The translations under genes and the position numbers were made by a program. 64,000 bases of DNA from Phyto melanocephala. Its lineage: Eukaryota > Arthropoda > Insecta > Diptera > Rhinophoridae. The notes under the pieces are model-generated. The model saw only the letters and a list, made by a program, of their open reading frames with translations. It did no database searches and was not told where the DNA came from. Location: NCBI GenBank assembly GCA_941918925.1, contig OW799237.1, positions 6,181,201 through 6,245,200 of the forward strand, written 5' to 3'. Shown piece after piece: positions 3,126 to 62,918 of this stretch (position 1 is its first letter; each line of letters starts with the position of its first letter).

Positions 3126-4385
3126 ATGTCGTCGACTTTAACAACATTTAGTTTAAAAAAAGATTTTCTATTTGAAACTTTAAAAAAGTCTTCACAGCAA
3201 CAACTAGCCCTGAGTCACCGCTATGAACAATTGCTAGTCACCGAGAAGTACTACGACTGTATGTTTGTAGTGGGCGTGGCGGGTAAAGTAAAGTGTCATA
3301 AATTAATATTGGCCGCGGCCAGTCCGGTATTTGAGGCCATGTTCTATGGGCCCATTAGTGAAGTCGAAAGTTTTGTAGAGATTTTAGACATGAGCCTGGA
3401 AATTTTTAAACTTATGATTTTGTATATTTACAAAGGATCTATTGACTTTCACAATCTTTCGCTAGAAGAAACCATTGAATTGTATTATGGTGCAGAGAAA
3501 TATTTGCTTAACGACTTAAAAGCGGAATGTTTGGAGAACATACAAATGAAATTGAGATTTTCCAATATTTTGGCCTCTTTAGAATTGAGTATATGTTTAG
3601 ATCTTAATAGTCTGCTTAATATTTGCATGAATTTTTTTACACGCTGCTGTCTCACGGAATCACAGTTTGTGGCCTATTTGAAAAAACATTACTATCATGT
3701 CTCTAAAGATTGTATTAAGGCCATAATAAATCTTTGTAAAGAAGAGATACCCACACAAAATCTTTTATGGTTTATCTACGAATGGTGCCAGCAAGAATGT
3801 GTAGAAATGGGTTTGAAAAGCAGTGAATGCTCAGCTATAATAGAAGATCTTAATTTAACAGATTCTAAGGACACCATAGACATCAAGGACAGTATTAAAC
3901 CTATATACACTCAAAACATAGAAAGATGTTATTACAAGGCCTGTCGACCCTTTAAAATAGATGATGATAATTACGAATGGTTGACTTATATAAAATCAAA
4001 TCGTTATATATCTCTACAAGGTCTTGTACTGCAAAGTCGTTTAACACCCCACCTTACACGTATGCAAGTACCAACTGATTATCTAGAAAACTTGCGTTTA
4101 GAAATTACTACTCCTAATTATGACTCTAACCTGCTATGGTCCTATGAGATCACTAAACAATTAACGAAATATAATTGCGATTTAAGTATTAAATGGCCTA
4201 AAGGTATTGTGTTATCGCCAGATATAGAATATCAAATAAAACTAGTTTGGAGAACAACCCAGTGTCAAGGTGCTGAATATCCTTGTAGTGTGTTATCCTC
4301 TTCAGTTGATGGTATACAATTTAAAGAATGTGATACAAGTAGTGGTAGTTTAATAAAGGGTTTACATTTTGTAAATTTAGTTTAA
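3126..4385 (+). CDS. BTB/POZ-BACK protein with a PHR-like C-terminus
   Basis: A 419-residue reading frame from ATG at 3126 to TAA at 4383-4385. Residues about 25-130 form a BTB/POZ domain (YYDCMFVVG, then CHKLILAAASPVFEAMFYG, then the IYKGSIDF strand, then the AEKYLLNDLK helix). A BACK-like helical region follows (about 130-235). The last 150 residues, with SLQGLVLQSRL and YLENLRLEI, look like a diverged PHR domain, giving the order seen in the BTBD1/2/3/6 group. That family acts as substrate adaptors for cullin-3 ubiquitin ligases; this is family knowledge and is not shown here. CTTTTTGCAG lies directly before the ATG and is a good splice acceptor, so there is probably a non-coding, or short coding, upstream exon. 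The gene has no intron after that point. AATAAA follows at 4475. The orthologue is not identified. Confidence 0.85.
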   Translation: MSSTLTTFSLKKDFLFETLKKSSQQQLALSHRYEQLLVTEKYYDCMFVVGVAGKVKCHKLILAAASPVFEAMFYGPISEVESFVEILDMSLEIFKLMILYIYKGSIDFHNLSLEETIELYYGAEKYLLNDLKAECLENIQMKLRFSNILASLELSICLDLNSLLNICMNFFTRCCLTESQFVAYLKKHYYHVSKDCIKAIINLCKEEIPTQNLLWFIYEWCQQECVEMGLKSSECSAIIEDLNLTDSKDTIDIKDSIKPIYTQNIERCYYKACRPFKIDDDNYEWLTYIKSNRYISLQGLVLQSRLTPHLTRMQVPTDYLENLRLEITTPNYDSNLLWSYEITKQLTKYNCDLSIKWPKGIVLSPDIEYQIKLVWRTTQCQGAEYPCSVLSSSVDGIQFKECDTSSGSLIKGLHFVNLV

Positions 4386-13772: not shown

Positions 13773-14739
13773 CTAGCCAATCCCGGCGCGCGTTGCTACG
13801 CCCCTTAATGAATCGAAATGCATTCTGAATTTTAATTGAATATCAAGTGCAAAAACTTAAAAATTATAATTTTATTTCATGAAAGTGGCATTTCCCACTT
13901 TTCTAATCACGAAATTGTAAAGTCATAACAGCTCAATATGTGTGCAAAGTTTCAGAAGAATTGGACCAGTGCAAGTACCTCAAAATTATAATTGTTTTTA
14001 TGGGCGTGGCCCTGCCCATTTTTCTAATCACGAAATTATAAAGTCATAACAGCTCAATATGTGTGCAAAGTTTCAGAATAATCGGTCCAGTGCAAGTACC
14101 TCAAAATGATACTGCTCACTTTTCTAATCACGGAAATATTTAGTCATGACAGCTCGATATGTGTGCAAAGTTTCAGAAGAATTGGACCAGTGCAAGTACC
14201 TCAAAATTATAATTGTTTTTATGGGCGTGGCCCTGCCCATTTTTCTAATCACGAAATTGTAAAGTCATAACAGCTCAATATGTGTGCAAAGTTTCAGAAT
14301 AATCGGTCTAGTGCAAGTACCTCAAAATGATACCTTTTTTTTATGGGCGTGGTACTGCTCACTTTTCTAATCACGAAATCATTAAGTCATGACAGCTCGA
14401 TATGTGTGCAAAGTTTCAGAAAAATCGGCCTAGTGCAAGTACCTCAAAATTAAAACTTTTTTAGGGGCGTGGCCCCGCCCACTTTTTTTATCACGAAATT
14501 ATTTAGTCATGACAGCTCGATATGTGTGCAAGTTTTCAGAAAAATCGGTCAAGTGCAAGTAGCTAAAACTGATGACTAATTTTTATGGGCGTAGCCCCGC
14601 CCTCTTTTTTACACCCATAAACACTCCCTGGTATGTGTAAAACAACTTGCCAAAGCTTGAGTCTGATCGGTTTTACAGTTTCGGAGTCTATAGCTAACAT
14701 ACATACACACACACAGAGTTTCACTTTTATATATATAGA
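13773..14739 (-). mobile_element. Helitron-like element, 967 bp
   Basis: On the - strand it starts with TCTATATATATAAAAGTG directly after A and ends with GGCTAG directly before T. A GC-rich stretch (GCGTAGCAACGCGCGCCGGG) lies just before the end. Insertion between A and T without target duplication and the CTAG terminus are Helitron hallmarks. The interior is a tandem series of roughly 120-bp units. Each has a near-palindromic GGGCGTGGCCCCGCCC core, ACAGCTCAATATGTGTGCAA, AGTTTCAGAA and GTGCAAGTACCTCAAAAT. No Rep/helicase is encoded. The closest relative in the window is at 59788-60656. Confidence 0.8.
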
Positions 14740-17439: not shown

Positions 17440-20400
17440 CTGAAACATTTTCAATAAGGATAGAATTAAAAAATGAAGTTGCATTTATAATTACAACAAG
17501 TAACAGTGCTATATTCGGCCGTGCCGAATCTTATATACCCTTCACTACGTGTAGTCATGCAATAACAATTGTTTGTATCACCATTCATCCCATATAAAAT
17601 ACGTGCATACGTACACGTTAGAATAAATGTGGCATCGAATCCCAGCTGAGCCAAAAAAATTTTATTTAATTTTATTTAATATATTATTTATATTTTATTA
17701 TTTTTTTTTTATATTTTTTTTAAATTTTTTTAAAAAATTTTTTTAGAAAAATTTTTAAAAAATTTTTTTAAATTTTTTTTTTAAATTTTTTTTAAATTTT
17801 TTTTTTGTAGTTTTTTTTTATTATTTTTTTCTTATTTTTAATATTTTTTTTTTGTAATTTTTTTTGTTTGGTATGTTTTTTACATGTATCTATGTATGTA
17901 TGTTTTTGTTGTAATTGTGAAAAAAAACGAGGTAGTCGTGGTTTTTTGCTCATATCTCAGAAAGTTATGGGGCGATTGTGCTGAATTTCAATAGCGATTC
18001 ATTCCTGGATATTTCCAAGAGATTGATACCATATTCAGATCTGAGGAACATATAGTTGCTTCTAAAAGTTGATTTCAACCAACACACGGACAGACGGGCA
18101 GACGGACAGACGGACAGACGGACAGACGGACAGACGGTCAGGGCTTAATCGACTCCTCTATTCATAAGCTTTCAGAAAATATATACTTTATGAGGTCGGA
18201 AATGAAAATTGTAGAAATTACAAACGGAATGACAAAGCTATATATACCCTTGTGCACCACAGGTGAAGGGTATAAAAAGAAAATATTATGAAAAAAATGG
18301 AGTCAGTGTTAGTTTCTTGCTTATATCTCATTTAATAATTAGCCGTTTGGCTCATTTGTAATACCAGAATTTTCGAAACATTTCAAATATCTGTAGGAAA
18401 GTGTAATAGTGATGAAATTATTTTAGTGCAAACTATAATTGACAAATATATTATCTAATTCAAATTCAAAAATTTAAGAGCGCTACAAACATATGTACTA
18501 GATCTGATACATGTGTAAAGCCTTCACCAAAGTGTATACAATAATTCAGATCTTGTTTCGTTTTTTTATGTATTTTAAATAAGACACTTGCTCCATATTC
18601 ATAATAAATGTTTAAATGTAAAATTTTGAAAAACCTAATTTTTATAAAAAAAAACTAGCGAACCCGGCGAACTTCGCCTCGCCCCAATTTTAAGACAAAC
18701 TTTAGAGTAATAATACAACTCAAATATTTAAATTTTCAATGTGACACCTGTCAGATTGCGCAGTCTAAGTCAAAGTATAACGCCATCTATCGGATTTTGG
18801 CTAAAAACTTTATATTTTTCATTTGAAAAGCCATTAAGAAATAATTTCACACAAAATTTCATACAAAAGCACGATTTTTCCAATTTTCCGACTTTTCCGC
18901 AGGGATTTCTTTTTTACAGAAATCGGCCCAGCCGTTCTCATTTTATTAATTTCTATACATTTTTCACAATATTTTTATATATAGGTATGTATATAGATTC
19001 CTTTTTTTAATTTGATAACGAAAAGACAAATTTAGAAATAAGTGCTATTCTAATTTCATTAAACCGAAACATAAATAGTAGTTTCAAATTACATGAGTCA
19101 TGATAAAGCGTGCTGATGATGAAATCGTAGCTGGCTTCAAAAATGCATTCCATTCGGCTAATATCGTAATAATTTTTTAATATACCTTAATGATAACAAT
19201 TTAATTTAATATATTAAAAGGAAAATAAACTTAAGTCAGAATAAAAATGATTTACAATAAATTTAAAATAAAAAGTTCCAATAAAAATTAATTTATAATT
19301 TTAAAACTTGTTTTTGAATATGGGTGTTAAAATATAAATTAATGTCTTATCTCATTTACATTTTAAAGGTAATTTCATTTAAATGTTAGCCGCGAACAAG
19401 CTGGATCATTCGAAAGATAATATTTTAAATCAGTCATTATTTTTCAAGAAAAAAAAACAAACTGATAATTTTACCAGCTCATGAACCACAATGTACTGCC
19501 GACATTTTTGTAGTTCGCAAATCTATTCGAAATTTTTGTTTATTTAGGTATGCAAAAGCAGTGAATCTTTATTGAGATGTAGCAAAGCATATTAATAATA
19601 TTAAAATAAATTATTTAAATTCATGAACGAGTTGGATTTTGTAGGCCTTTCAATAAAGATGCTGGCATAAAATTATTTGTTTTAAATCATACATAAAGTC
19701 AAATTGGTCACGTTATTTACCCAAACGCTTTACTACAGCCATATTACCGCTCTCACCAAGGGGTGGATGTGACCTATTATATCACGAATCATCAAACAAC
19801 GTACAGTAAGACTTATGCTTGCAGATAGTATTGACAATAGTGGGTTCGTTCTTTTGTTTTAACAGTGACATAACTCAAAAAACATATTCTCGAAATAAAT
19901 TGTTTTCGGACATTTTACTATTCTTTTTAACCCATTAATGGCCATTGTACTCGCACAGGTACAGAAAAACACTCATATTTGAATGGACATAAATCCAATA
20001 ATAAATTATTTTGTTCACTATTTGTTTCGATTTTGTGTTGTGTTCTCTGCTTAATAAAATCAAATCGAAAAAGCTGCGTCAGCGAATAACGGTATTTCGA
20101 ATTTTGATTGATTTTGCTTAACCTTTTCAAGATTTTCCCATTTTGGGTAGGTCAGTGATTGTTTTACTCTGTTAGAAGTGTATAGCATAACAATTAGAAG
20201 AGTTTGCACTTGATTTGCAAATAAAAGCGCTTGTTTTTTTTTATTTTAAAATAAGTTGTTCATAAAAAGTGATATTCCAGGCGATAGGTAAGTTTAAAAA
20301 ACAGTGTACTCGCTTAGGTACAGTGGCTAATAACGTGATTATTTTGATTATTTTTTTTAGTTTTTTTTTCATATCAATATGTCGTTTAAAAGCATCAATC

Positions 20401-45509: not shown

Positions 45510-45525
45510 AATAAATTTTGTACTT
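45510..45525 (+). repeat. 16-bp direct repeat, left border of the inverted array
   Basis: AATAAATTTTGTACTT, repeated exactly at 59282-59297 on the other side of the array. It is a candidate target site duplication. Confidence 0.75.
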
Positions 45526-48500
45526 ATATATTTATATTTTATTTGAACTTTTTTCTATATATTAAATTTTAATGTGAACCATTTTTTATTTTGGCTTAAG
45601 TTCATTTGTTTATTTATTTAATTTTATAATTCAAATTAAATTAAATTGTAACCATTTTAGGAATATTCTTTCTAAAAATTACTTCCGATATTAGCCGAGT
45701 GGAATGCATTTTCGAAATCAGCTACGATTTCATCATCAGCACTCTTTATCGGTATACTACTATGTAACTTAAAATTCCTATTTATGTTACAATTGAATGA
45801 AATTTGAATTAGTGAATCTTAGTATCATTTTTCATATTTTGTTGAATATTTAATTTCACCTATCAAATGACAATTCATAATTCAACATGTTCATATTCTT
45901 CTTTATTCGTAATACATTTTCGTTATGCTTTCAATATCCATCCTTTGGCTGGAATTATTGAAAACAAGGTTGTATTTACATTTTCATTTATATAAGTCCA
46001 TCTAGGTGATAGACACTGAACAATGAATTCTTGAATGTCATTAACACCGTGCCATGTGTGTTATAATTATATATTTATATTTTATTCGAACTTTTTTCTA
46101 TATATTAAATTTTAATGTGAACCATTTTTTATTTTGGCTTAAGTTCATTTGTTTATTTATTTAATTTTATAATTCAAGTTAAATTAAATTGTAACCATTT
46201 TAGGAATATTCTTTCTAAAAATTACTTCCGATATTAGCCGAGTGGAATGCATTTTCGAAATCAGCTACGATTTCATCATCAGCACTCTTTATCGGTATAC
46301 TACTATGTAACTTAAAATTCCTATTTATGTTACAATTGAATGAAATTTGAATTAGTGAATCTTAGTATCATTTTTCATATTTTGTTGAATATTTAATTTC
46401 ACCTATCAAATGACAATTCATAATTCAACATGTTCATATTCTTCTTTATTCGTAATACATTTTCGTTATGCTTTCAATATCCATCCTTTGGCTGGAATTA
46501 TTGAAAACAAGGTTGTATTTACATTTTCATTTATATAAGTCCATCTAGGTGATAGACACTGAACAATGAATTCTTGAATGTCATTAACACCGTGCCATGT
46601 GTGTTATAATTATATATTTATATTTTATTCGAACTTTTTTCTATATATTAAATTTTAATGTGAACCATTTTTTATTTTGGCTTAAGTTCATTTGTTTATT
46701 TATTTAATTTTATAATTCAAATTAAATTAAATTGTAACCATTTTAGGAATATTCTTTCTAAAAATTACTTCCGATATTAGCCGAGTGGAATGCATTTTCG
46801 AAATCAGCTACGATTTCATCATCAGCACTCTTTATCGGTATACTACTATGTAACTTAAAATTCCTATTTATGTTACAATTGAATGAAATTTGAATTAGTG
46901 AATCTTAGTATCATTTTTCATATTTTGTTGAATATTTAATTTCACCTATCAAATGACAATTCATAATTCAACATGTTCATATTCTTCTTTATTCGTAATA
47001 CATTTTCGTTATGCTTTCAATATCCATCCTTTGGCTGGAATTATTGAAAACAAGGTTGTATTTACATTTTCATTTATATAAGTCCATCTAGGTGATAGAC
47101 ACTGAACAATGAATTCTTGAATGTCATTAACACCGTGCCATGTGTGTTATAATTATATATTTATATTTTATTCGAACTTTTTTCTATATATTAAATTTTA
47201 ATGTGAACCATTTTTTATTTTGGCTTAAGTTCATTTGTTTATTTATTTAATTTTATAATTCAAATTAAATTAAATTGTAACCATTTTAGGAATATTCTTT
47301 CTAAAAATTACTTCCGATATTAGCCGAGTGGAATGCATTTTCGAAATCAGCTACGATTTCATCATCAGCACTCTTTATCGGTATACTACTATGTAACTTA
47401 AAATTCCTATTTATGTTACAATTGAATGAAATTTGAATTAGTGAATCTTAGTATCATTTTTCATATTTTGTTGAATATTTAATTTCACCTATCAAATGAC
47501 AATTCATAATTCAACATGTTCATATTCTTCTTTATTCGTAATACATTTTCGTTATGCTTTCAATATCCATCCTTTGGCTGGAATTATTGAAAACAAGGTT
47601 GTATTTACATTTTCATTTATATAAGTCCATCTAGGTGATAGACACTGAACAATGAATTCTTGAATGTCATTAACACCGTGCCATGTGTGTTATAATTATA
47701 TATTTATATTTTATTCGAACTTTTTTCTATATATTAAATTTTAATGTGAACCATTTTTTATTTTGGCTTAAGTTCATTTGTTTATTTATTTAATTTTATA
47801 ATTCAAATTAAATTAAATTGTAACCATTTTAGGAATATTCTTTCTAAAAATTACTTCCGATATTAGCCGAGTGGAATGCATTTTCGAAATCAGCTACGAT
47901 TTCATCATCAGCACTCTTTATCGGTATACTACTATGTAACTTAAAATTCCTATTTATGTTACAATTGAATGAAATTTGAATTAGTGAATCTTAGTATCAT
48001 TTTTCATATTTTGTTGAATATTTAATTTCACCTATCAAATGACAATTCATAATTCAACATGTTCATATTCTTCTTTATTCGTAATACATTTTCGTTATGC
48101 TTTCAATATCCATCCTTTGGCTGGAATTATTGAAAACAAGGTTGTATTTACATTTTCATTTATATAAGTCCATCTAGGTGATAGACACTGAACAATGAAT
48201 TCTTGAATGTCATTAACACCGTGCCATGTGTGTTATAATTATATATTTATATTTTATTCGAACTTTTTTCTATATATTAAATTTTAATGTGAACCATTTT
48301 TTATTTTGGCTTAAGTTCATTTGTTTATTTATTTAATTTTATAATTCAAATTAAATTAAATTGTAACCATTTTAGGAATATTCTTTCTAAAAATTACTTC
48401 CGATATTAGCCGAGTGGAATGCATTTTCGAAATCAGCTACGATTTCATCATCAGCACTCTTTATCGGTATACTACTATGTAACTTAAAATTCCTATTTAT

Positions 48501-51500
48501 GTTACAATTGAATGAAATTTGAATTAGTGAATCTTAGTATCATTTTTCATATTTTGTTGAATATTTAATTTCACCTATCAAATGACAATTCATAATTCAA
48601 CATGTTCATATTCTTCTTTATTCGTAATACATTTTCGTTATGCTTTCAATATCCATCCTTTGGCTGGAATTATTGAAAACAAGGTTGTATTTACATTTTC
48701 ATTTATATAAGTCCATCTAGGTGATAGACACTGAACAATGAATTCTTGAATGTCATTAACACCGTGCCATGTGTGTTATAATTATATATTTATATTTTAT
48801 TCGAACTTTTTTCTATATATTAAATTTTAATGTGAACCATTTTTTATTTTGGCTTAAGTTCATTTGTTTATTTATTTAATTTTATAATTCAAATTAAATT
48901 AAATTGTAACCATTTTAGGAATATTCTTTCTAAAAATTACTTCCGATATTAGCCGAGTGGAATGCATTTTCGAAATCAGCTACGATTTCATCATCAGCAC
49001 TCTTTATCGGTATACTACTATGTAACTTAAAATTCCTATTTATGTTACAATTGAATGAAATTTGAATTAGTGAATCTTAGTATCATTTTTCATATTTTGT
49101 TGAATATTTAATTTCACCTATCAAATGACAATTCATAATTCAACATGTTCATATTCTTCTTTATTCGTAATACATTTTCGTTATGCTTTCAATATCCATC
49201 CTTTGGCTGGAATTATTGAAAACAAGGTTGTATTTACATTTTCATTTATATAAGTCCATCTAGGTGATAGACACTGAACAATGAATTCTTGAATGTCATT
49301 AACACCGTGCCATGTGTGTTATAATTATATATTTATATTTTATTCGAACTTTTTTCTATATATTAAATTTTAATGTGAACCATTTTTTATTTTGGCTTAA
49401 GTTCATTTGTTTATTTATTTAATTTTATAATTCAAATTAAATTAAATTGTAACCATTTTAGGAATATTCTTTCTAAAAATTACTTCCGATATTAGCCGAG
49501 TGGAATGCATTTTCGAAATCAGCTACGATTTCATCATCAGCACTCTTTATCGGTATACTACTATGTAACTTAAAATTCCTATTTATGTTACAATTGAATG
49601 AAATTTGAATTAGTGAATCTTAGTATCATTTTTCATATTTTGTTGAATATTTAATTTCACCTATCAAATGACAATTCATAATTCAACATGTTCATATTCT
49701 TCTTTATTCGTAATACATTTTCGTTATGCTTTCAATATCCATCCTTTGGCTGGAATTATTGAAAACAAGGTTGTATTTACATTTTCATTTATATAAGTCC
49801 ATCTAGGTGATAGACACTGAACAATGAATTCTTGAATGTCATTAACACCGTGCCATGTGTGTTATAATTATATATTTATATTTTATTCGAACTTTTTTCT
49901 ATATATTAAATTTTAATGTGAACCATTTTTTATTTTGGCTTAAGTTCATTTGTTTATTTATTTAATTTTATAATTCAAATTAAATTAAATTGTAACCATT
50001 TTAGGAATATTCTTTCTAAAAATTACTTCCGATATTAGCCGAGTGGAATGCATTTTCGAAATCAGCTACGATTTCATCATCAGCACTCTTTATCGGTATA
50101 CTACTATGTAACTTAAAATTCCTATTTATGTTACAATTGAATGAAATTTGAATTAGTGAATCTTAGTATCATTTTTCATATTTTGTTGAATATTTAATTT
50201 CACCTATCAAATGACAATTCATAATTCAACATGTTCATATTCTTCTTTATTCGTAATACATTTTCGTTATGCTTTCAATATCCATCCTTTGGCTGGAATT
50301 ATTGAAAACAAGGTTGTATTTACATTTTCATTTATATAAGTCCATCTAGGTGATAGACACTGAACAATGAATTCTTGAATGTCATTAACACCGTGCCATG
50401 TGTGTTATAATTATATATTTATATTTTATTCGAACTTTTTTCTATATATTAAATTTTAATGTGAACCATTTTTTATTTTGGCTTAAGTTCATTTGTTTAT
50501 TTATTTAATTTTATAATTCAAATTAAATTAAATTGTAACCATTTTAGGAATATTCTTTCTAAAAATTACTTCCGATATTAGCCGAGTGGAATGCATTTTC
50601 GAAATCAGCTACGATTTCATCATCAGCACTCTTTATCGGTATACTACTATGTAACTTAAAATTCCTATTTATGTTACAATTGAATGAAATTTGAATTAGT
50701 GAATCTTAGTATCATTTTTCATATTTTGTTGAATATTTAATTTCACCTATCAAATGACAATTCATAATTCAACATGTTCATATTCTTCTTTATTCGTAAT
50801 ACATTTTCGTTATGCTTTCAATATCCATCCTTTGGCTGGAATTATTGAAAACAAGGTTGTATTTACATTTTCATTTATATAAGTCCATCTAGGTGATAGA
50901 CACTGAACAATGAATTCTTGAATGTCATTAACACCGTGCCATGTGTGTTATAATTATATATTTATATTTTATTCGAACTTTTTTCTATATATTAAATTTT
51001 AATGTGAACCATTTTTTATTTTGGCTTAAGTTCATTTGTTTATTTATTTAATTTTATAATTCAAATTAAATTAAATTGTAACCATTTTAGGAATATTCTT
51101 TCTAAAAATTACTTCCGATATTAGCCGAGTGGAATGCATTTTCGAAATCAGCTACGATTTCATCATCAGCACTCTTTATCGGTATACTACTATGTAACTT
51201 AAAATTCCTATTTATGTTACAATTGAATGAAATTTGAATTAGTGAATCTTAGTATCATTTTTCATATTTTGTTGAATATTTAATTTCACCTATCAAATGA
51301 CAATTCATAATTCAACATGTTCATATTCTTCTTTATTCGTAATACATTTTCGTTATGCTTTCAATATCCATCCTTTGGCTGGAATTATTGAAAACAAGGT
51401 TGTATTTACATTTTCATTTATATAAGTCCATCTAGGTGATAGACACTGAACAATGAATTCTTGAATGTCATTAACACCGTGCCATGTGTGTTATAATTAT

Positions 51501-52410
51501 ATATTTATATTTTATTCGAACTTTTTTCTATATATTAAATTTTAATGTGAACCATTTTTTATTTTGGCTTAAGTTCATTTGTTTATTTATTTAATTTTAT
51601 AATTCAAATTAAATTAAATTGTAACCATTTTAGGAATATTCTTTCTAAAAATTACTTCCGATATTAGCCGAGTGGAATGCATTTTCGAAATCAGCTACGA
51701 TTTCATCATCAGCACTCTTTATCGGTATACTACTATGTAACTTAAAATTCCTATTTATGTTACAATTGAATGAAATTTGAATTAGTGAATCTTAGTATCA
51801 TTTTTCATATTTTGTTGAATATTTAATTTCACCTATCAAATGACAATTCATAATTCAACATGTTCATATTCTTCTTTATTCGTAATACATTTTCGTTATG
51901 CTTTCAATATCCATCCTTTGGCTGGAATTATTGAAAACAAGGTTGTATTTACATTTTCATTTATATAAGTCCATCTAGGTGATAGACACTGAACAATGAA
52001 TTCTTGAATGTCATTAACACCGTGCCATGTGTGTTATAATTATATATTTATATTTTATTCGAACTTTTTTCTATATATTAAATTTTAATGTGAACCATTT
52101 TTTATTTTGGCTTAAGTTCATTTGTTTATTTATTTAATTTTATAATTCAAATTAAATTAAATTGTAACCATTTTAGGAATATTCTTTCTAAAAATTACTT
52201 CCGATATTAGCCGAGTGGAATGCATTTTCGAAATCAGCTACGATTTCATCATCAGCACTCTTTATCGGTATACTACTATGTAACTTAAAATTCCTATTTA
52301 TGTTACAATTGAATGAAATTTGAATTAGTGAATCTTAGTATCATTTTTCATATTTTGTTGAATATTTAATTTCACCTATCAAATGACAATTCATAATTCA
52401 ACATGTTCAT
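45524..52410 (+). repeat. Left arm: thirteen head-to-tail copies of a 543-bp satellite unit
   Basis: The TTAGCCGAGTGGAATGCATT landmark starts at 45691, 46234, 46777, 47320 and so on to 52207, always 543 bp apart: thirteen copies. The first unit is cut at its left side and the last is cut after ACATGTTCAT at 52410. Copies are nearly identical; differences seen are TTATTTGAAC instead of TTATTCGAAC in the first and AAGTTAAATT instead of AAATTAAATT in the second. No long open frame or tRNA-like promoter was recognised in the unit. The near-identity implies recent amplification or active homogenisation. Confidence 0.95.
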
Positions 52411-52444
52411 CATGTATTACGAATAAAGAAGAATATGAACATGT
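52401..52444. repeat. Centre of the palindrome, asymmetric 24-nt spacer
   Basis: ACATGTTCAT (52401-52410) pairs with ATGAACATGT (52435-52444). The 24 bases between them are not self-complementary. They consist of one unmatched C and then right-arm unit sequence from ATGTATTACG. Symmetry is exact around 52422.5. Confidence 0.9.
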
Positions 52445-55400
52445 TGAATTATGAATTGTCATTTGATAGGTGAAATTAAATATTCAACAAAATATGAAAA
52501 ATGATACTAAGATTCACTAATTCAAATTTCATTCAATTGTAACATAAATAGGAATTTTAAGTTACATAGTAGTATACCGATAAAGAGTGCTGATGATGAA
52601 ATCGTAGCTGATTTCGAAAATGCATTCCACTCGGCTAATATCGGAAGTAATTTTTAGAAAGAATATTCCTAAAATGGTTACAATTTAATTTAATTTGAAT
52701 TATAAAATTAAATAAATAAACAAATGAACTTAAGCCAAAATAAAAAATGGTTCACATTAAAATTTAATATATAGAAAAAAGTTCGAATAAAATATAAATA
52801 TATAATTATAACACACATGGCACGGTGTTAATGACATTCAAGAATTCATTGTTCAGTGTCTATCACCTAGATGGACTTATATAAATGAAAATGTAAATAC
52901 AACCTTGTTTTCAATAATTCCAGCCAAAGGATGGATATTGAAAGCATAACGAAAATGTATTACGAATAAAGAAGAATATGAACATGTTGAATTATGAATT
53001 GTCATTTGATAGGTGAAATTAAATATTCAACAAAATATGAAAAATGATACTAAGATTCACTAATTCAAATTTCATTCAATTGTAACATAAATAGGAATTT
53101 TAAGTTACATAGTAGTATACCGATAAAGAGTGCTGATGATGAAATCGTAGCTGATTTCGAAAATGCATTCCACTCGGCTAATATCGGAAGTAATTTTTAG
53201 AAAGAATATTCCTAAAATGGTTACAATTTAATTTAATTTGAATTATAAAATTAAATAAATAAACAAATGAACTTAAGCCAAAATAAAAAATGGTTCACAT
53301 TAAAATTTAATATATAGAAAAAAGTTCGAATAAAATATAAATATATAATTATAACACACATGGCACGGTGTTAATGACATTCAAGAATTCATTGTTCAGT
53401 GTCTATCACCTAGATGGACTTATATAAATGAAAATGTAAATACAACCTTGTTTTCAATAATTCCAGCCAAAGGATGGATATTGAAAGCATAACGAAAATG
53501 TATTACGAATAAAGAAGAATATGAACATGTTGAATTATGAATTGTCATTTGATAGGTGAAATTAAATATTCAACAAAATATGAAAAATGATACTAAGATT
53601 CACTAATTCAAATTTCATTCAATTGTAACATAAATAGGAATTTTAAGTTACATAGTAGTATACCGATAAAGAGTGCTGATGATGAAATCGTAGCTGATTT
53701 CGAAAATGCATTCCACTCGGCTAATATCGGAAGTAATTTTTAGAAAGAATATTCCTAAAATGGTTACAATTTAATTTAATTTGAATTATAAAATTAAATA
53801 AATAAACAAATGAACTTAAGCCAAAATAAAAAATGGTTCACATTAAAATTTAATATATAGAAAAAAGTTCGAATAAAATATAAATATATAATTATAACAC
53901 ACATGGCACGGTGTTAATGACATTCAAGAATTCATTGTTCAGTGTCTATCACCTAGATGGACTTATATAAATGAAAATGTAAATACAACCTTGTTTTCAA
54001 TAATTCCAGCCAAAGGATGGATATTGAAAGCATAACGAAAATGTATTACGAATAAAGAAGAATATGAACATGTTGAATTATGAATTGTCATTTGATAGGT
54101 GAAATTAAATATTCAACAAAATATGAAAAATGATACTAAGATTCACTAATTCAAATTTCATTCAATTGTAACATAAATAGGAATTTTAAGTTACATAGTA
54201 GTATACCGATAAAGAGTGCTGATGATGAAATCGTAGCTGATTTCGAAAATGCATTCCACTCGGCTAATATCGGAAGTAATTTTTAGAAAGAATATTCCTA
54301 AAATGGTTACAATTTAATTTAATTTGAATTATAAAATTAAATAAATAAACAAATGAACTTAAGCCAAAATAAAAAATGGTTCACATTAAAATTTAATATA
54401 TAGAAAAAAGTTCGAATAAAATATAAATATATAATTATAACACACATGGCACGGTGTTAATGACATTCAAGAATTCATTGTTCAGTGTCTATCACCTAGA
54501 TGGACTTATATAAATGAAAATGTAAATACAACCTTGTTTTCAATAATTCCAGCCAAAGGATGGATATTGAAAGCATAACGAAAATGTATTACGAATAAAG
54601 AAGAATATGAACATGTTGAATTATGAATTGTCATTTGATAGGTGAAATTAAATATTCAACAAAATATGAAAAATGATACTAAGATTCACTAATTCAAATT
54701 TCATTCAATTGTAACATAAATAGGAATTTTAAGTTACATAGTAGTATACCGATAAAGAGTGCTGATGATGAAATCGTAGCTGATTTCGAAAATGCATTCC
54801 ACTCGGCTAATATCGGAAGTAATTTTTAGAAAGAATATTCCTAAAATGGTTACAATTTAATTTAATTTGAATTATAAAATTAAATAAATAAACAAATGAA
54901 CTTAAGCCAAAATAAAAAATGGTTCACATTAAAATTTAATATATAGAAAAAAGTTCGAATAAAATATAAATATATAATTATAACACACATGGCACGGTGT
55001 TAATGACATTCAAGAATTCATTGTTCAGTGTCTATCACCTAGATGGACTTATATAAATGAAAATGTAAATACAACCTTGTTTTCAATAATTCCAGCCAAA
55101 GGATGGATATTGAAAGCATAACGAAAATGTATTACGAATAAAGAAGAATATGAACATGTTGAATTATGAATTGTCATTTGATAGGTGAAATTAAATATTC
55201 AACAAAATATGAAAAATGATACTAAGATTCACTAATTCAAATTTCATTCAATTGTAACATAAATAGGAATTTTAAGTTACATAGTAGTATACCGATAAAG
55301 AGTGCTGATGATGAAATCGTAGCTGATTTCGAAAATGCATTCCACTCGGCTAATATCGGAAGTAATTTTTAGAAAGAATATTCCTAAAATGGTTACAATT

Positions 55401-58400
55401 TAATTTAATTTGAATTATAAAATTAAATAAATAACCAAATGAACTTAAGCCAAAATAAAAAATGGTTCACATTAAAATTTAATATATAGAAAAAAGTTCG
55501 AATAAAATATAAATATATAATTATAACACACATGGCACGGTGTTAATGACATTCAAGAATTCATTGTTCAGTGTCTATCACCTAGATGGACTTATATAAA
55601 TGAAAATGTAAATACAACCTTGTTTTCAATAATTCCAGCCAAAGGATGGATATTGAAAGCATAACGAAAATGTATTACGAATAAAGAAGAATATGAACAT
55701 GTTGAATTATGAATTGTCATTTGATAGGTGAAATTAAATATTCAACAAAATATGAAAAATGATACTAAGATTCACTAATTCAAATTTCATTCAATTGTAA
55801 CATAAATAGGAATTTTAAGTTACATAGTAGTATACCGATAAAGAGTGCTGATGATGAAATCGTAGCTGATTTCGAAAATGCATTCCACTCGGCTAATATC
55901 GGAAGTAATTTTTAGAAAGAATATTCATAAAATGGTTACAATTTAATTTAATTTGAATTATAAAATTAAATAAATAAACAAATGAACTTAAGCCAAAATA
56001 AAAAATGGTTCACATTAAAATTTAATATATAGAAAAAAGTTCGAATAAAATATAAATATATAATTATAACACACATGGCACGGTGTTAATGACATTCAAG
56101 AATTCATTGTTCAGTGTCTATCACCTAGATGGACTTATATAAATGAAAATGTAAATACAACCTTGTTTTCAATAATTCCAGCCAAAGGATGGATATTGAA
56201 AGCATAACGAAAATGTATTACGAATAAAGAAGAATATGAACATGTTGAATTATGAATTGTCATTTGATAGGTGAAATTAAATATTCAACAAAATATGAAA
56301 AATGATACTAAGATTCACTAATTCAAATTTCATTCAATTGTAACATAAATAGGAATTTTAAGTTACATAGTAGTATACCGATAAAGAGTGCTGATGATGA
56401 AATCGTAGCTGATTTCGAAAATGCATTCCACTCGGCTAATATCGGAAGTAATTTTTAGAAAGAATATTCCTAAAATGGTTACAATTTAATTTAATTTGAA
56501 TTATAAAATTAAATAAATAAACAAATGAACTTAAGCCAAAATAAAAAATGGTTCACATTAAAATTTAATATATAGAAAAAAGTTCGAATAAAATATAAAT
56601 ATATAATTATAACACACATGGCACGGTGTTAATGACATTCAAGAATTCATTGTTCAGTGTCTATCACCTAGATGGACTTATATAAATGAAAATGTAAATA
56701 CAACCTTGTTTTCAATAATTCCAGCCAAAGGATGGATATTGAAAGCATAACGAAAATGTATTACGAATAAAGAAGAATATGAACATGTTGAATTATGAAT
56801 TGTCATTTGATAGGTGAAATTAAATATTCAACAAAATATGAAAAATGATACTAAGATTCACTAATTCAAATTTCATTCAATTGTAACATAAATAGGAATT
56901 TTAAGTTACATAGTAGTATACCGATAAAGAGTGCTGATGATGAAATCGTAGCTGATTTCGAAAATGCATTCCACTCGGCTAATATCGGAAGTAATTTTTA
57001 GAAAGAATATTCCTAAAATGGTTACAATTTAATTTAATTTGAATTATAAAATTAAATAAATAAACAAATGAACTTAAGCCAAAATAAAAAATGGTTCACA
57101 TTAAAATTTAATATATAGAAAAAAGTTCGAATAAAATATAAATATATAATTATAACACACATGGCACGGTGTTAATGACATTCAAGAATTCATTGTTCAG
57201 TGTCTATCACCTAGATGGACTTATATAAATGAAAATGTAAATACAACCTTGTTTTCAATAATTCCAGCCAAAGGATGGATATTGAAAGCATAACGAAAAT
57301 GTATTACGAATAAAGAAGAATATGAACATGTTGAATTATGAATTGTCATTTGATAGGTGAAATTAAATATTCAACAAAATATGAAAAATGATACTAAGAT
57401 TCACTAATTCAAATTTCATTCAATTGTAACATAAATAGGAATTTTAAGTTACATAGTAGTATACCGATAAAGAGTGCTGATGATGAAATCGTAGCTGATT
57501 TCGAAAATGCATTCCACTCGGCTAATATCGGAAGTAATTTTTAGAAAGAATATTCCTAAAATGGTTACAATTTAATTTAATTTGAATTATAAAATTAAAT
57601 AAATAAACAAATGAACTTAAGCCAAAATAAAAAATGGTTCACATTAAAATTTAATATATAGAAAAAAGTTCGAATAAAATATAAATATATAATTATAACA
57701 CACATGGCACGGTGTTAATGAAATTCAAGAATTCATTGTTCAGTGTCTATCACCTAGATGGACTTATATAAATGAAAATGTAAATACAACCTTGTTTTCA
57801 ATAATTCCAGCCAAAGGATGGATATTGAAAGCATAACGAAAATGTATTACGAATAAAGAAGAATATGAACATGTTGAATTATGAATTGTCATTTGATAGG
57901 TGAAATTAAATATTCAACAAAATATGAAAAATGATACTAAGATTCACTAATTCAAATTTCATTCAATTGTAACATAAATAGGAATTTTAAGTTACATAGT
58001 AGTATACCGATAAAGAGTGCTGATGATGAAATCGTAGCTGATTTCGAAAATGCATTCCACTCGGCTAATATCGGAAGTAATTTTTAGAAAGAATATTCCT
58101 AAAATGGTTACAATTTAATTTAATTTGAATTATAAAATTAAATAAATAAACAAATGAACTTAAGCCAAAATAAAAAATGGTTCACATTAAAATTTAATAT
58201 ATAGAAAAAAGTTCGAATAAAATATAAATATATAATTATAACACACATGGCACGGTGTTAATGACATTCAAGAATTCATTGTTCAGTGTCTATCACCTAG
58301 ATGGACTTATATAAATGAAAATGTAAATACAACCTTGTTTTCAATAATTCCAGCCAAAGGATGGATATTGAAAGCATAACGAAAATGTATTACGAATAAA

Positions 58401-59285
58401 GAAGAATATGAACATGTTGAATTATGAATTGTCATTTGATAGGTGAAATTAAATATTCAACAAAATATGAAAAATGATACTAAGATTCACTAATTCAAAT
58501 TTCATTCAATTGTAACATAAATAGGAATTTTAAGTTACATAGTAGTATACCGATAAAGAGTGCTGATGATGAAATCGTAGCTGATTTCGAAAATGCATTC
58601 CACTCGGCTAATATCGGAAGTAATTTTTAGAAAGAATATTCCTAAAATGGTTACAATTTAATTTAATTTGAATTATAAAATTAAATAAATAAACAAATGA
58701 ACTTAAGCCAAAATAAAAAATGGTTCACATTAAAATTTAATATATAGAAAAAAGTTCGAATAAAATATAAATATATAATTATAACACACATGGCACGGTG
58801 TTAATGACATTCAAGAATTCATTGTTCAGTGTCTATCACCTAGATGGACTTATATAAATGAAAATGTAAATACAACCTTGTTTTCAATAATTCCAGCCAA
58901 AGGATGGATATTGAAAGCATAACGAAAATGTATTACGAATAAAGAAGAATATGAACATGTTGAATTATGAATTGTCATTTGATAGGTGAAATTAAATATT
59001 CAACAAAATATGAAAAATGATACTAAGATTCACTAATTCAAATTTCATTCAATTGTAACATAAATAGGAATTTTAAGTTACATAGTAGTATACCGATAAA
59101 GAGTGCTGATGATGAAATCGTAGCTGATTTCGAAAATGCATTCCACTCGGCTAATATCGGAAGTAATTTTTAGAAAGAATATTCCTAAAATGGTTACAAT
59201 TTAATTTAATTTGAATTATAAAATTAAATAAATAAACAAATGAACTTAAGCCAAAATAAAAAATGGTTCACATTAAAATTTAATA
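52412..59285 (-). repeat. Right arm: thirteen copies of the same unit, inverted
   Basis: The complementary landmark CTAA in TCGGCTAATATCGG starts at 52635, 53178 and so on to 59151, again 543 bp apart and thirteen copies. Private variants include AATAACCAAATG near 55431, ATTCATAAAATGG near 55925 and ATGAAATTCAAG near 57720. The arm ends in the middle of a unit at about 59285, 36 bp short of the mirror position of the left border. Confidence 0.95.
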
Positions 59286-59297
59286 AATTTTGTACTT
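59282..59297 (+). repeat. 16-bp direct repeat, right border of the inverted array
   Basis: AATAAATTTTGTACTT, identical to 45510-45525. The first few bases overlap the end of the unit, so the independent duplication could be somewhat shorter. Confidence 0.75.
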
Positions 59298-59517: not shown

Positions 59518-61153
59518 GTAAGAGCGCTATATTCGGCCGTGCCGAATTTTATATACCCTTCACAACGTGTAGTCATGAAATAACAGTAGTTTGTGTCACC
59601 ATTAATCCCATATGAAATACGTTGATACATATATAAAAACATCCCATTGTAAAATTATAAATTCACGTATGTATGTTAAAAAAAGGAAAAAAAAAAATTA
59701 AAAAAAAAAAATTTTAAAAAAATTTAAAAAAAAAATTTAAAAAAAAATTTAAAAAAAAATTTAAAAAAATATTTAAAAAAAAAATTATCTATATATATAA
59801 AAGTGAAACTCTGTGTGTGTGTGTGTGTGTGTGTTAGCTATAGACTCTGAAACTGTAAAACCGATCGGGCTCAAACTTTGGTAAGTTGTTGTACACATAC
59901 CAGGGAGTGTTTATGGATGAAAAAAAGTGGGCGGGGCCACGCCCATAAAAAATTAGTTATCAGTTTTAGCTACTTGCACTTGACCGATTTTTCTGAAACT
60001 TTGCACACATATCGAGCTGTCATGACTAAATAATTTCGTGATAAGAAAAGTGGGCGGGGCCACGCCCCTAAAAAAGTTTTAACTTTGAGGTACTTGCACT
60101 GGACCGATTTTTCTGAAACTTTGCACACATATTAAGCTGTCGTGACTTTATAATTTTAAGATTAAAAAAGTGGGCGGGGCCACGCCCATAAAAAAAGGCT
60201 ATAATTTTGAGGTACTTGCACCAGACTGATTTTCTGAAACTTTGCACACATATTGAGCTGTCATGACTAAATAATTTCGTGATTAGAAAAGTGGGCAGTG
60301 CCACGCCCATAAAAAAAAGGTATCATTTTAAGGTACTTGCACTGGACCGATTATTCTGAAACTTTGCACACATATTGAGCTGTTATGACTTTACAATTTC
60401 GTGATTAGAAAAGTGGGCAGGGCCACGCCCATAAAAACAATTTTAATTTTGAGGTACTTGCACTGGTCCGATTCTTCTGAAACTTTGCACACATATTGAG
60501 CTGTTATGACTTTACAATTTCGTGACTAGAAAAGTGGGCAATGACACGCCCATAAAAAATTATAATTTTTATGTTTTTGCACTTGATATTCAATTAAAAT
60601 TCAGAATGCATTTCGATTCATTAAGGGGCGTAGCAACGCGCGCAGGGTTTGGCTAGTTATATATAATTATAATTATTATATATAAAACAAAAAAAAAATT
60701 AAAAAAAAATAATAATAAAAATATAAAAAATATTTTAAATAAAAAATAAAAAAAAAAAATTAAAAAAAAAAAAAAAAAATTTTAAAAAAATTAAAAAAAA
60801 TTTTTTTGTTGGCTCAGCTGGGATTCGATTCCACGTTTTCTCTAACCAGTATACACGTTTGTATGTATGTATGTTGTTGTAATGTTGTTTTTGTGAAAAA
60901 AAAATCGAAGTGGTCGTGGGTTTTTGCTCATATCTCAGTCTATGTCGGGGGGCTTCAAAAAGTTGATTTCAACATACACACGGACAGACGGTTAGACGGA
61001 CAGACTGACAGACTGACAGGGCTTAATCGACTCCCCTATTCATAAGCTTTCAGAAAAAATATACTTTATGGGGTCGGAAATGAAAATTGTAGAAATTTCA
61101 CACGGAATGACAAACTTATATATCCCTTTTTCACTGTGTGAAGGGTATAAAAA
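59518..61153 (+). mobile_element. Outer dispersed repeat, copy D, with nested Helitron
   Basis: Begins AGAGCGCTATATTCGGCCGT with TATATACCCTTCAC and ends GTGAAGGGTATAAAAAG. The usual blocks are present: CTCAGCTGGGATTCGATTCC, CAGACTGACAGACTGACAGG and ACTTTATGGGGTCGGAAATG. A Helitron-like element (59788-60656) sits in its A-rich tract. Confidence 0.75.
59788..60656 (+). mobile_element. Helitron-like element, 869 bp
   Basis: Starts TCTATATATATAAAAGTG after A and ends GGTTTGGCTAG before T, with the GC-rich GCGTAGCAACGCGCGCAGGG just inside. A GT run follows the start. The interior has about six units of roughly 120 bp, each with a GTGGGCGGGGCCACGCCC-like palindrome, ACTTTGCACACATAT and TGAGGTACTTGCACTGGACC. 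It is the same family as 13773-14739 but in the opposite orientation. No coding capacity. Confidence 0.85.
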
Positions 61154-61852: not shown

Positions 61853-62918
61853 ATGACGGCCAACCATAGGCCCTTAGAAGAAGGTGACATTGAACTAATT
61901 GACCGAGTACGTGCATCACCTTGTCTGTACGACACAAAAGATCCCGATTTTCGTTTGGTACATAAGAAGGAACAGGAATGGCAGGCAGTTGCTGATAGCT
62001 TGGCCATGTCACATTTCGAGGCGCGTAAACGTTGGACTGTGCTAAGGGATCGTTATGCCCGTGAATTGAAACAGCTAATACTACATCCGGAAAGTAAGCA
62101 GTACGGTAGAAACAATTTTTTCCAGCGGATGGATTTTATAAGAAATTTTGTTAAAAAACGTGAGGTAAAACGAAAACGTTACAACTTTCAGGGTGTGGAA
62201 ATTAAAGAGCCAAGACCTCTAAAGATGTACAAAGTTGATTCAGATGCGTATAATTCCGACTCTGACTACAAACAAATGTCTCCGCCTGAAAAAAACTATA
62301 TAATCGATAACTGCCAGGATTCTTTAACTGGAAAATATAGTTATGTTGAAGTAAAAGCTCAGAATGTACTTGTAAAACAAGTAGATCATGAGAGTATAAA
62401 CAATATAGACGAACACAGTGGCGAACAGGATTATAATGATTATGTCGAAGGTGAGTATATTTTATACGTAAGCGTATACAGTAAAACAGAAATTTTCTGT
62501 CTTATTTTTTTAACTCGTTAAAACCATTTTAGACACTTCTGCTGCTTACGATGATGTAGAGGAACCAAATGGCGACATCGCTCAAGAAAATACAAATTAT
62601 TTGTTATCATCTCCGGTCAGTAACAATGCGAATCTTATAGTAAAACCAGGAAGTAGCAAAATGACGAATAACTTAAACATTACTGCGGAAGATGAAAGGC
62701 TGTCGTCTTTGCCAAGTTTACAACAGCGGCCCTTTCTGCAAAACCCTCTTAGAGAAACTGCATCACCACTCTTATCGCAGGATACCGAAGAATATTTCTC
62801 TAAAACTATAGCCTTGTACTTGAGACAATTGTCTCCACTGTATAAAATTAGAGCCAAAGTAGAAATGATGCAGATAATTGAAAAATTCATAGAATTGGAG
62901 GAAAATAGTAAATCGTGA
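61853..62918 (+). CDS. MADF-BESS domain DNA-binding protein
   Basis: Two exons, 61853-62450 and 62533-62918, joined across an 82-bp intron (GTGAGT/TTTTAG) in phase, giving 327 residues. Residues about 12-100 form a MADF domain, a Myb-related DNA-binding fold: EEGDIELIDRVRASPCLYD, DPDFRLVHKKEQEWQAVAD, then ARKRWTVLRDRYARELKQL. A basic patch (KKREVKRKR) follows, then an acidic and Asn/Ser-rich linker. The last 45 residues form a BESS motif (EEYFSKTIALYLRQLSPLYK, then MMQIIEKFIELEE) used for protein contacts. The family (Adf-1, Dip3 and many paralogues) is expanded in flies, so no one-to-one name is given. An upstream in-frame TTG at 61832 is not used as the start. Confidence 0.9.

Follow-up and report, generated by a model that had tools for sequence, protein, structure and literature searches.

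A 13.8-kb head-to-head array of 543-bp units in Phyto melanocephala as a probable insertion of a retrozyme-like relative of Penelope-like elements

Penelope-like elements (PLEs) carry type-I hammerhead ribozymes with little or no helix III, as set out in the part of PMC7761336 on which we draw. In the non-LTR retrozymes of metazoans, integration from a circular template is advanced as a hypothesis, in which autonomous PLEs are named as a "strong candidate" (Cervera and de la Pena 2020, PMC7229834, in the portion cited here). The activity of a PLE enzyme has been followed in vitro (PMC11167929, 2024, in the sections cited here), where it cuts AT-rich DNA and extends both strands. Synthesis starts at two adjacent internal sites, and the interval between them corresponds to the genomic tail. 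Those sections report no difference in start site between the two strands, find that the ribozyme is not needed for insertion in vitro, and describe the steps after first-strand synthesis as yet to be validated. Earlier work has already described PLE copies that lie head to head and may have a tail on one of their two inverted repeats (PMC3846280, in part). In this article we describe a large palindrome in the fly Phyto melanocephala, together with the dispersed family to which it belongs, and compare both with these systems.

Layout of the palindrome and its surroundings

The window analyzed here is a 64,000-nucleotide stretch of contig OW799237.1 (positions 6,181,201 to 6,245,200). Comparison of the window with itself yields an inverted match of 13,733 bp at 99.83% identity and direct matches every 543 bp, and the giant near-perfect palindrome reported in the initial annotation is thus real. 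It occupies positions 45526-59281, about 13.8 kb, and consists of 12.7 + 12.7 units of 543 bp arranged head to head (Table 1). The 13 + 13 copies originally counted hold as landmarks, with the hammerhead core described below occurring 13 times per strand, but the arms themselves measure 12.7 units each. Similarly, the center first given, 52422.5, is correct as the mirror axis, whereas the junction proper lies at 52411/52412. The outer limits first given, 45510 and 59297, coincide exactly with the outermost bases of a direct repeat, 16 bp long and perfect, that had escaped mention. Since the identical 16 bases, AATAAATTTTGTACTT, flank both outer ends, the palindrome is an insertion. The suspected self-contained structure is thus correct in the sense that a separate element has entered the site and duplicated its target.

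Only five substitutions, each confined to one unit, break the identity of the units over 13.8 kb. Three are in the right arm, in units 6, 7, and 10 counted from the center outward, and the two of the left arm affect unit 12 and the partial unit at its outer end. So small a number of substitutions, together with the intact duplication, suggests from the sequence that the insertion is young and possibly polymorphic. The number of units in this copy and the near-equality of its arms depend on the assembly.

Table 1. Features of the palindrome, in window coordinates
Feature	Position	Strand	Remarks
Left copy of 16-bp target-site duplication, AATAAATTTTGTACTT	45510..45525	.	sequence comparison
Left arm, 6885 bp, 12.7 units	45526..52410	- (unit sense)	"long" (tail) end outermost, at unit position 392
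Predicted hammerhead, first left-arm unit	52201..52268	-	13 times on minus strand; coordinates by arithmetic
One extra base at head-to-head junction	52411..52411	.	left-arm unit position 24 meets right-arm position 1
Right arm, 6870 bp, 12.7 units	52412..59281	+	"short" end outermost, at unit position 354
Predicted minimal type-I hammerhead, first right-arm unit (unit 166-233)	52577..52644	+	predicted cut after 52627; every 543 bp, 13 times
"Tail" interval, first right-arm unit (unit 354-392)	52765..52803	+	between the two positions where the family's insertions end
Right copy of 16-bp target-site duplication, AATAAATTTTGTACTT	59282..59297	.	perfect direct repeat of 45510-45525

The insertion lies, as the initial annotation had it, about 0.8 kb upstream of a gene for an RNA polymerase II tail-binding protein. 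The gene encodes a CID domain (PF04818, E 8e-25) on the minus strand, and its presumed start codon is the ATG at 44739, the first exon having been read by eye. A protein with a MADF DNA-binding domain (PF10545, E 2.6e-18) is encoded on the plus strand at 61871-62518, 2.6 kb past the right end of the insertion. Further away, positions 3162-4385 encode a BTB protein with 69-71% identity to its best named matches, proteins of Haematobia irritans, Stomoxys calcitrans, and Musca autumnalis, and with three further matches at 78-85% identity. Taken by itself, this protein would place the host among calyptrate flies near the Muscidae. A repeat of about 121 bp is found on either side of the palindrome, at 13846-14608 and 59921-60559, in opposite orientations, and looks like another dispersed repeat. 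Runs of the microsatellite ACAGACGG lie at 18082-18141 and 60976-61019, one near each of these stretches.

A dispersed family with two fixed ends and a probable single template per insertion

The fly's own genome assembly (739,753,867 bases in 9 contigs) was searched with parts of the 543-bp unit. In each search the best 40 of 325-444 first-look candidates were scored, and the family is therefore larger than the sample. The sample comprises 26 distinct loci, including the window, and takes in all of the loci listed except an array on contig C4 near 27.06 Mb. Two arms are present at 20 of the 26 loci, and in all 20 they are head to head. Three loci (L022, L024, and L027) have one arm only, two more (L029 and L016/L034) are incomplete, and L020, in which a very short second arm is apparent by eye, was left outside the count of 20. 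Long inverted satellite arrays had been called rarely seen intact, but this same fly genome contains several two-armed examples of multi-kb size. The arms of the 20 two-armed copies range from 57 to 6893 bp, and the window copy is the longest among the 26 loci. In 15 of the 20, the arms differ by more than 20% of the total length.

The outer ends of these insertions are of two kinds. Once the duplications are removed, "short" ends fall at unit positions 350-357, with outliers at 339 (L031) and 364 (L028), and "long" ends fall at 388-395. Every one of the 20 two-armed copies has one short and one long end, with a tail of about 38 bp between the two positions. The assignment was automatic in 18 of 19 copies; L028, in which an insertion of 13 A breaks the alignment, was assigned from a separate match to the tail stretch (unit 364-396), and L032, with ends at 388 and 354, was added to these. 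Across the two-armed copies the interval from short to long end is 33-56 bp, the value for L028 resting on its tail match. The two boundaries, unit positions 354 and 392, are predicted to be a pair of start sites for reverse transcription. Target-site duplications of 13-16 bp, perfect over 16 bp at the window, are likewise present in 20 of 20. Some bases counted in these lengths match the end of the element too, and simple AT sequence makes up several of the duplications. That of L032 was matched with a 12-bp word and is 13 bp by reading, and the other 19 are tabulated.

The center of the array, in contrast to these fixed ends, lies at a differing unit position in nearly every two-armed copy. 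At the junctions found there, the two arms either share 0-3 bases or are separated by extra bases, numbering 1 to about 65. The center of L009 is located inside a self-complementary stretch, and the window and L026 have almost identical center positions with different junctions. Several of the presumed cDNA ends seem to lie near unit positions 525-60, where there might be a preferred stop.

Variants in the units connect the two arms of each insertion. At unit position 236, G is found in 26 of 26 units of the window whereas A is found in 25 of 25 other loci, and L010, L012, L013, and L015 each have a variant, private to the locus among those sampled, that both arms carry in all of their covered units. 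Within an insertion the arms differ at 32 of 1276 positions, as compared to 1190 of 24,953 positions between insertions. The four arm differences in L033 stem from alignment placement and fall to zero when one left unit is compared with one right unit. Because the private variants are common to both arms, each insertion appears to have had one template, and in the simplest reading of the sequences a single circular or multimeric template was copied repeatedly to give both arms.

The unit itself has a GC content of 24.9%. The longest frame is around 49 aa in the doubled unit, with no frame for a reverse transcriptase (RT) or endonuclease, and an attempt to read the unit as a coding remnant gave nothing. 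An older and abundant relative of the unit (L023:2240-2418 and L035-L051; 17 slices) has 73-80% identity over the main matches, from a search in which the best 40 of 3021 first-look candidates were scored.

The predicted ribozyme and the relationship to PLEs

The 543-bp unit is predicted from its sequence to carry a self-cutting hammerhead ribozyme. By eye, unit positions 166-233 read as a minimal type-I hammerhead on the strand that leads away from the center in each arm. The parts are CCGATA and GAGTG (stem I), CTGATGA, an extra T, a 6-bp stem II, and GAA, while stem III is the self-complementary AATGCATT. The matching strands of stem I are present, and there is a C at the predicted cut, unit position 216. 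Other natural hammerheads also have additional nucleotides following the CUGAUGA core. A descriptor of the motif, which was written after the motif had been seen, has one match in each unit (13 + 13), none in the rest of the window, and none in 100 random sequences of 60 kb. The centroid fold contains stem II and both parts of stem I, and the minimum-energy fold (z -2.2) pairs the outer strand of stem I differently from a hammerhead.

Searches with covariance models did not report the hammerhead. Rfam, run over 2.2 kb around the array center, gave 13 weak matches, all of them on the palindrome center and below the gathering scores; nearly all are to microRNA families and one is to a plastid UTR family. 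A search of the genome with RF00163, in which the best 73 of 57,102 candidates were scored, also left the hammerhead of the unit unreported. An alignment of 18 sequences has 91% paired cells and no compensatory change. With no covariation, the case for the ribozyme rests on the core consensus, the helices, and conservation. The core is found by expression in 11 of the 17 slices of the older related family, and a comparison of the unit with that family in 10-base bins gives 87-97% identity in the ribozyme bins versus 53-76% directly beside them, with four other bins of the unit being as conserved as those of the ribozyme.

PLEs are present in the same genome. A search with a motif that we take to be that of the PLE endonuclease, in which the best 150 of 1156 candidates were scored, returned PLE-type endonuclease frames with a best E of 4.3e-12, and several copies are in open frames of about 848 aa. 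Some of these frames are ordered "- - - + +" along the chromosome in steps of 3058-3067 bp. A Pfam search for GIY-YIG did not report the PLEs and gave only one frame, which looks unrelated. As PLE copies also form head-to-head tandem arrays (G000:C3:6154505-6167123 and G000:C4:5247495-5255779; slices L056-L059), a palindromic layout is found outside the 543-bp family as well.

The footprint of PLE insertion resembles that of the unit in one array, L056-L059. This array has an RT frame (RVT_1, E 1.2e-9) and, by eye, a GIY-YIG-like sequence and a hammerhead-like stretch, in which stem III is again self-complementary and one nucleotide is likewise added at the corresponding site; a similar stretch is found in a second PLE family (L053-L055). 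The ends of the array are 41 bp apart by matching, or around 37 bp when the duplication is subtracted, and the duplication is 13 bp long in an A-run. The center of the PLE array, within 480-760 of L058, is a run of N that hides the junction. The tail motif AAAAAGNTCGA is common to the unit and both PLEs, and the 10-base form of it has one background match in 50 kb. Similarity of the unit to PLEs across the wider tail is weak at the level of sequence, since shuffling of the tail region does as well in 81 of 2000 trials against L058, 8 of 1000 against L055, and 196 of 1000 against L053, a slice that may lack the tail.

As it has no long frame, the unit is not an autonomous PLE, and it could at most depend on PLE machinery as a non-autonomous element, which a PLE protein would mobilize in trans. 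The two start sites of the PLE enzyme in vitro and its extension of both strands fit the footprint of the family, save in two respects: each insertion of this family uses each of the two sites once, unlike the PLE enzyme in vitro, and that enzyme did not need the ribozyme.

Proposed integration mechanism and comparison with known systems

We consider it likely that the palindrome is one insertion of a non-coding, 543-bp, retrozyme-like relative of PLEs, produced by double-ended target-primed reverse transcription of one RNA circle. In this process the tandem units would be transcribed, and self-cleavage by the ribozyme would release 543-nt RNA monomers, to be closed into circles. Supplied in trans, a PLE protein would make staggered cuts, some 12-16 bp apart, in AT-rich DNA. 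Priming would follow on both strands at the limits of the tail, around unit position 392 on one and around 354 on the other. By going round the circle repeatedly, each reverse transcriptase would produce tandem cDNA, after which the two cDNA ends would be joined head to head, at a unit position that varies between insertions, and the duplication would result when the staggered cut is repaired. Transcription, cleavage, the RNA circle, and the PLE enzyme are inferred, whereas the head-to-head arrays, duplications, fixed outer ends, variable centers, private variants, and ribozyme motif can be seen in the DNA. Double-ended priming on one circle is favored because it explains the head-to-head orientation and the two fixed but unlike ends, and because it also explains the variable center, the long tandem arms copied from one template, and the duplication. 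The three one-armed loci count against the mechanism, and so do the near-equal arms of the window copy, which independent stops do not predict. A hairpin transcript from the palindrome is possible as a by-product, and nothing seen in the sequence points to the replication fork barrier that was also suggested at the outset.

The equality of the window's arms may be due to convoy movement, to chance, or to assembly. In a convoy, two reverse transcriptases would have travelled together round one ribozyme-made RNA circle, starting 38 nt apart and stopping 23 nt apart some 12.7 laps later. We put this forward tentatively, as somewhat more doubtful than not. The arm lengths of the 20 two-armed copies have a Spearman correlation of 0.37 (p 0.11, not significant), and the convoy is therefore not established. 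If it were true, PLE integration in general would be marked by one tail per insertion, and head-to-head satellite arrays would owe their origin to a single event and not to unequal exchange.

The layout could also be real with the number of units, and hence the equality of the arms, being a product of assembly, which we regard as unlikely. The window copy exceeds the 25 other loci in length, and a split this even has a chance of only about 0.14% under a uniform split. However, two different flanks with a matching duplication are impossible from a folded read, single-unit variants are scattered through both arms, and smaller copies have a like layout. In addition, the chance of at least one split within 19 bp among 20 copies is 22%, owing mostly to the small copies.

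Greater doubt attaches to the same element having acquired its inverted arms by self-priming, in which the cDNA folds back and is itself copied, a route that has been put forward for rotifer PLEs. The part of PMC3846280 that we cite favors such priming, on an antisense template, for head-to-head PLE copies with junction palindromes, and both the nearly equal arms of the window and the L009 center are as this route would have them. It nevertheless predicts equal arms, which most of the two-armed copies clearly lack (15 of the 20, as above), and like outer ends, whereas all 20 have unlike ends about 38 bp apart.

The two remaining explanations are very improbable and were rejected. A foldback DNA transposon with tandem-unit inverted repeats, such as Tetris of Drosophila virilis or FB/Galileo, would be a dispersed non-coding fly family with inverted tandem-repeat arms, and Tetris is alike in outline (PMC4079207, in part), but the duplications here are 13-16 bp as opposed to 8-10 bp, the termini are unlike, flanking and middle domains are missing, the centers vary among copies, and a hammerhead and a PLE-like tail are present. 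A local satellite duplicated inversely by fork switching, hairpin capping, or sister fusion would suit the equal arms, the 23-nt offset, and the one extra base at the center, but this origin, and with it the fold-back amplification suggested at the outset, is contradicted by the 16-bp duplication at the outer edges, by identical end positions at unrelated loci, by the private G at 236 in all units, and by 19 other two-armed copies elsewhere that have duplications, unlike ends, and mostly unequal arms.

The favored mechanism, priming from both ends on one circle, bears upon how retrozymes and PLEs enter chromosomes, as the family provides natural end products that hold only two cDNAs. Its insertions give direct access to the start sites, the stagger, the number of templates, and the joining. 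It would also give a one-step origin to inverted satellite arrays that might otherwise be mistaken for assembly errors or rearrangements. Among titles and the beginnings of abstracts, a range that leaves most subscription papers outside, we recognized no head-to-head retrozyme arrays and no one-tail rule, coverage that is too limited to prove novelty.

The family resembles the metazoan non-LTR retrozymes in its short, non-coding, low-GC tandem unit with a type-I hammerhead motif, in duplications of more than 4 bp, in the PLEs found in the same genome, and in that no LTR features were noticed (compared with the part of PMC7229834 cited here). The unit of 543 bp is longer than the units reported there, given as 150-450 bp and as about 170-400 nt, and that part of the source does not describe the two-armed head-to-head arrays or the fixed tail rule found in this fly. 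Expression as circular RNA is a further trait of retrozymes, and for the present family such a circle is predicted from the DNA. With Tetris and other foldback elements it shares inverted arms of satellite-like tandem repeats, although Tetris has 8-10-bp duplications as well as flanking and middle domains, and is attributed by its authors to the Mutator superfamily (PMC4079207, in the sections used). It differs from PLEs in that the unit has no RT or endonuclease frame and the arms are arrays of many units, and from rotifer PLEs in its duplications of 13-16 bp, against the 8-10 bp given in the relevant part of PMC3846280. In common with PLEs, it has head-to-head copies, partial tandems, a tail of 30-40 bp at one end, a minimal hammerhead, and AT-rich targets (PMC11167929 and PMC3846280, each in part).
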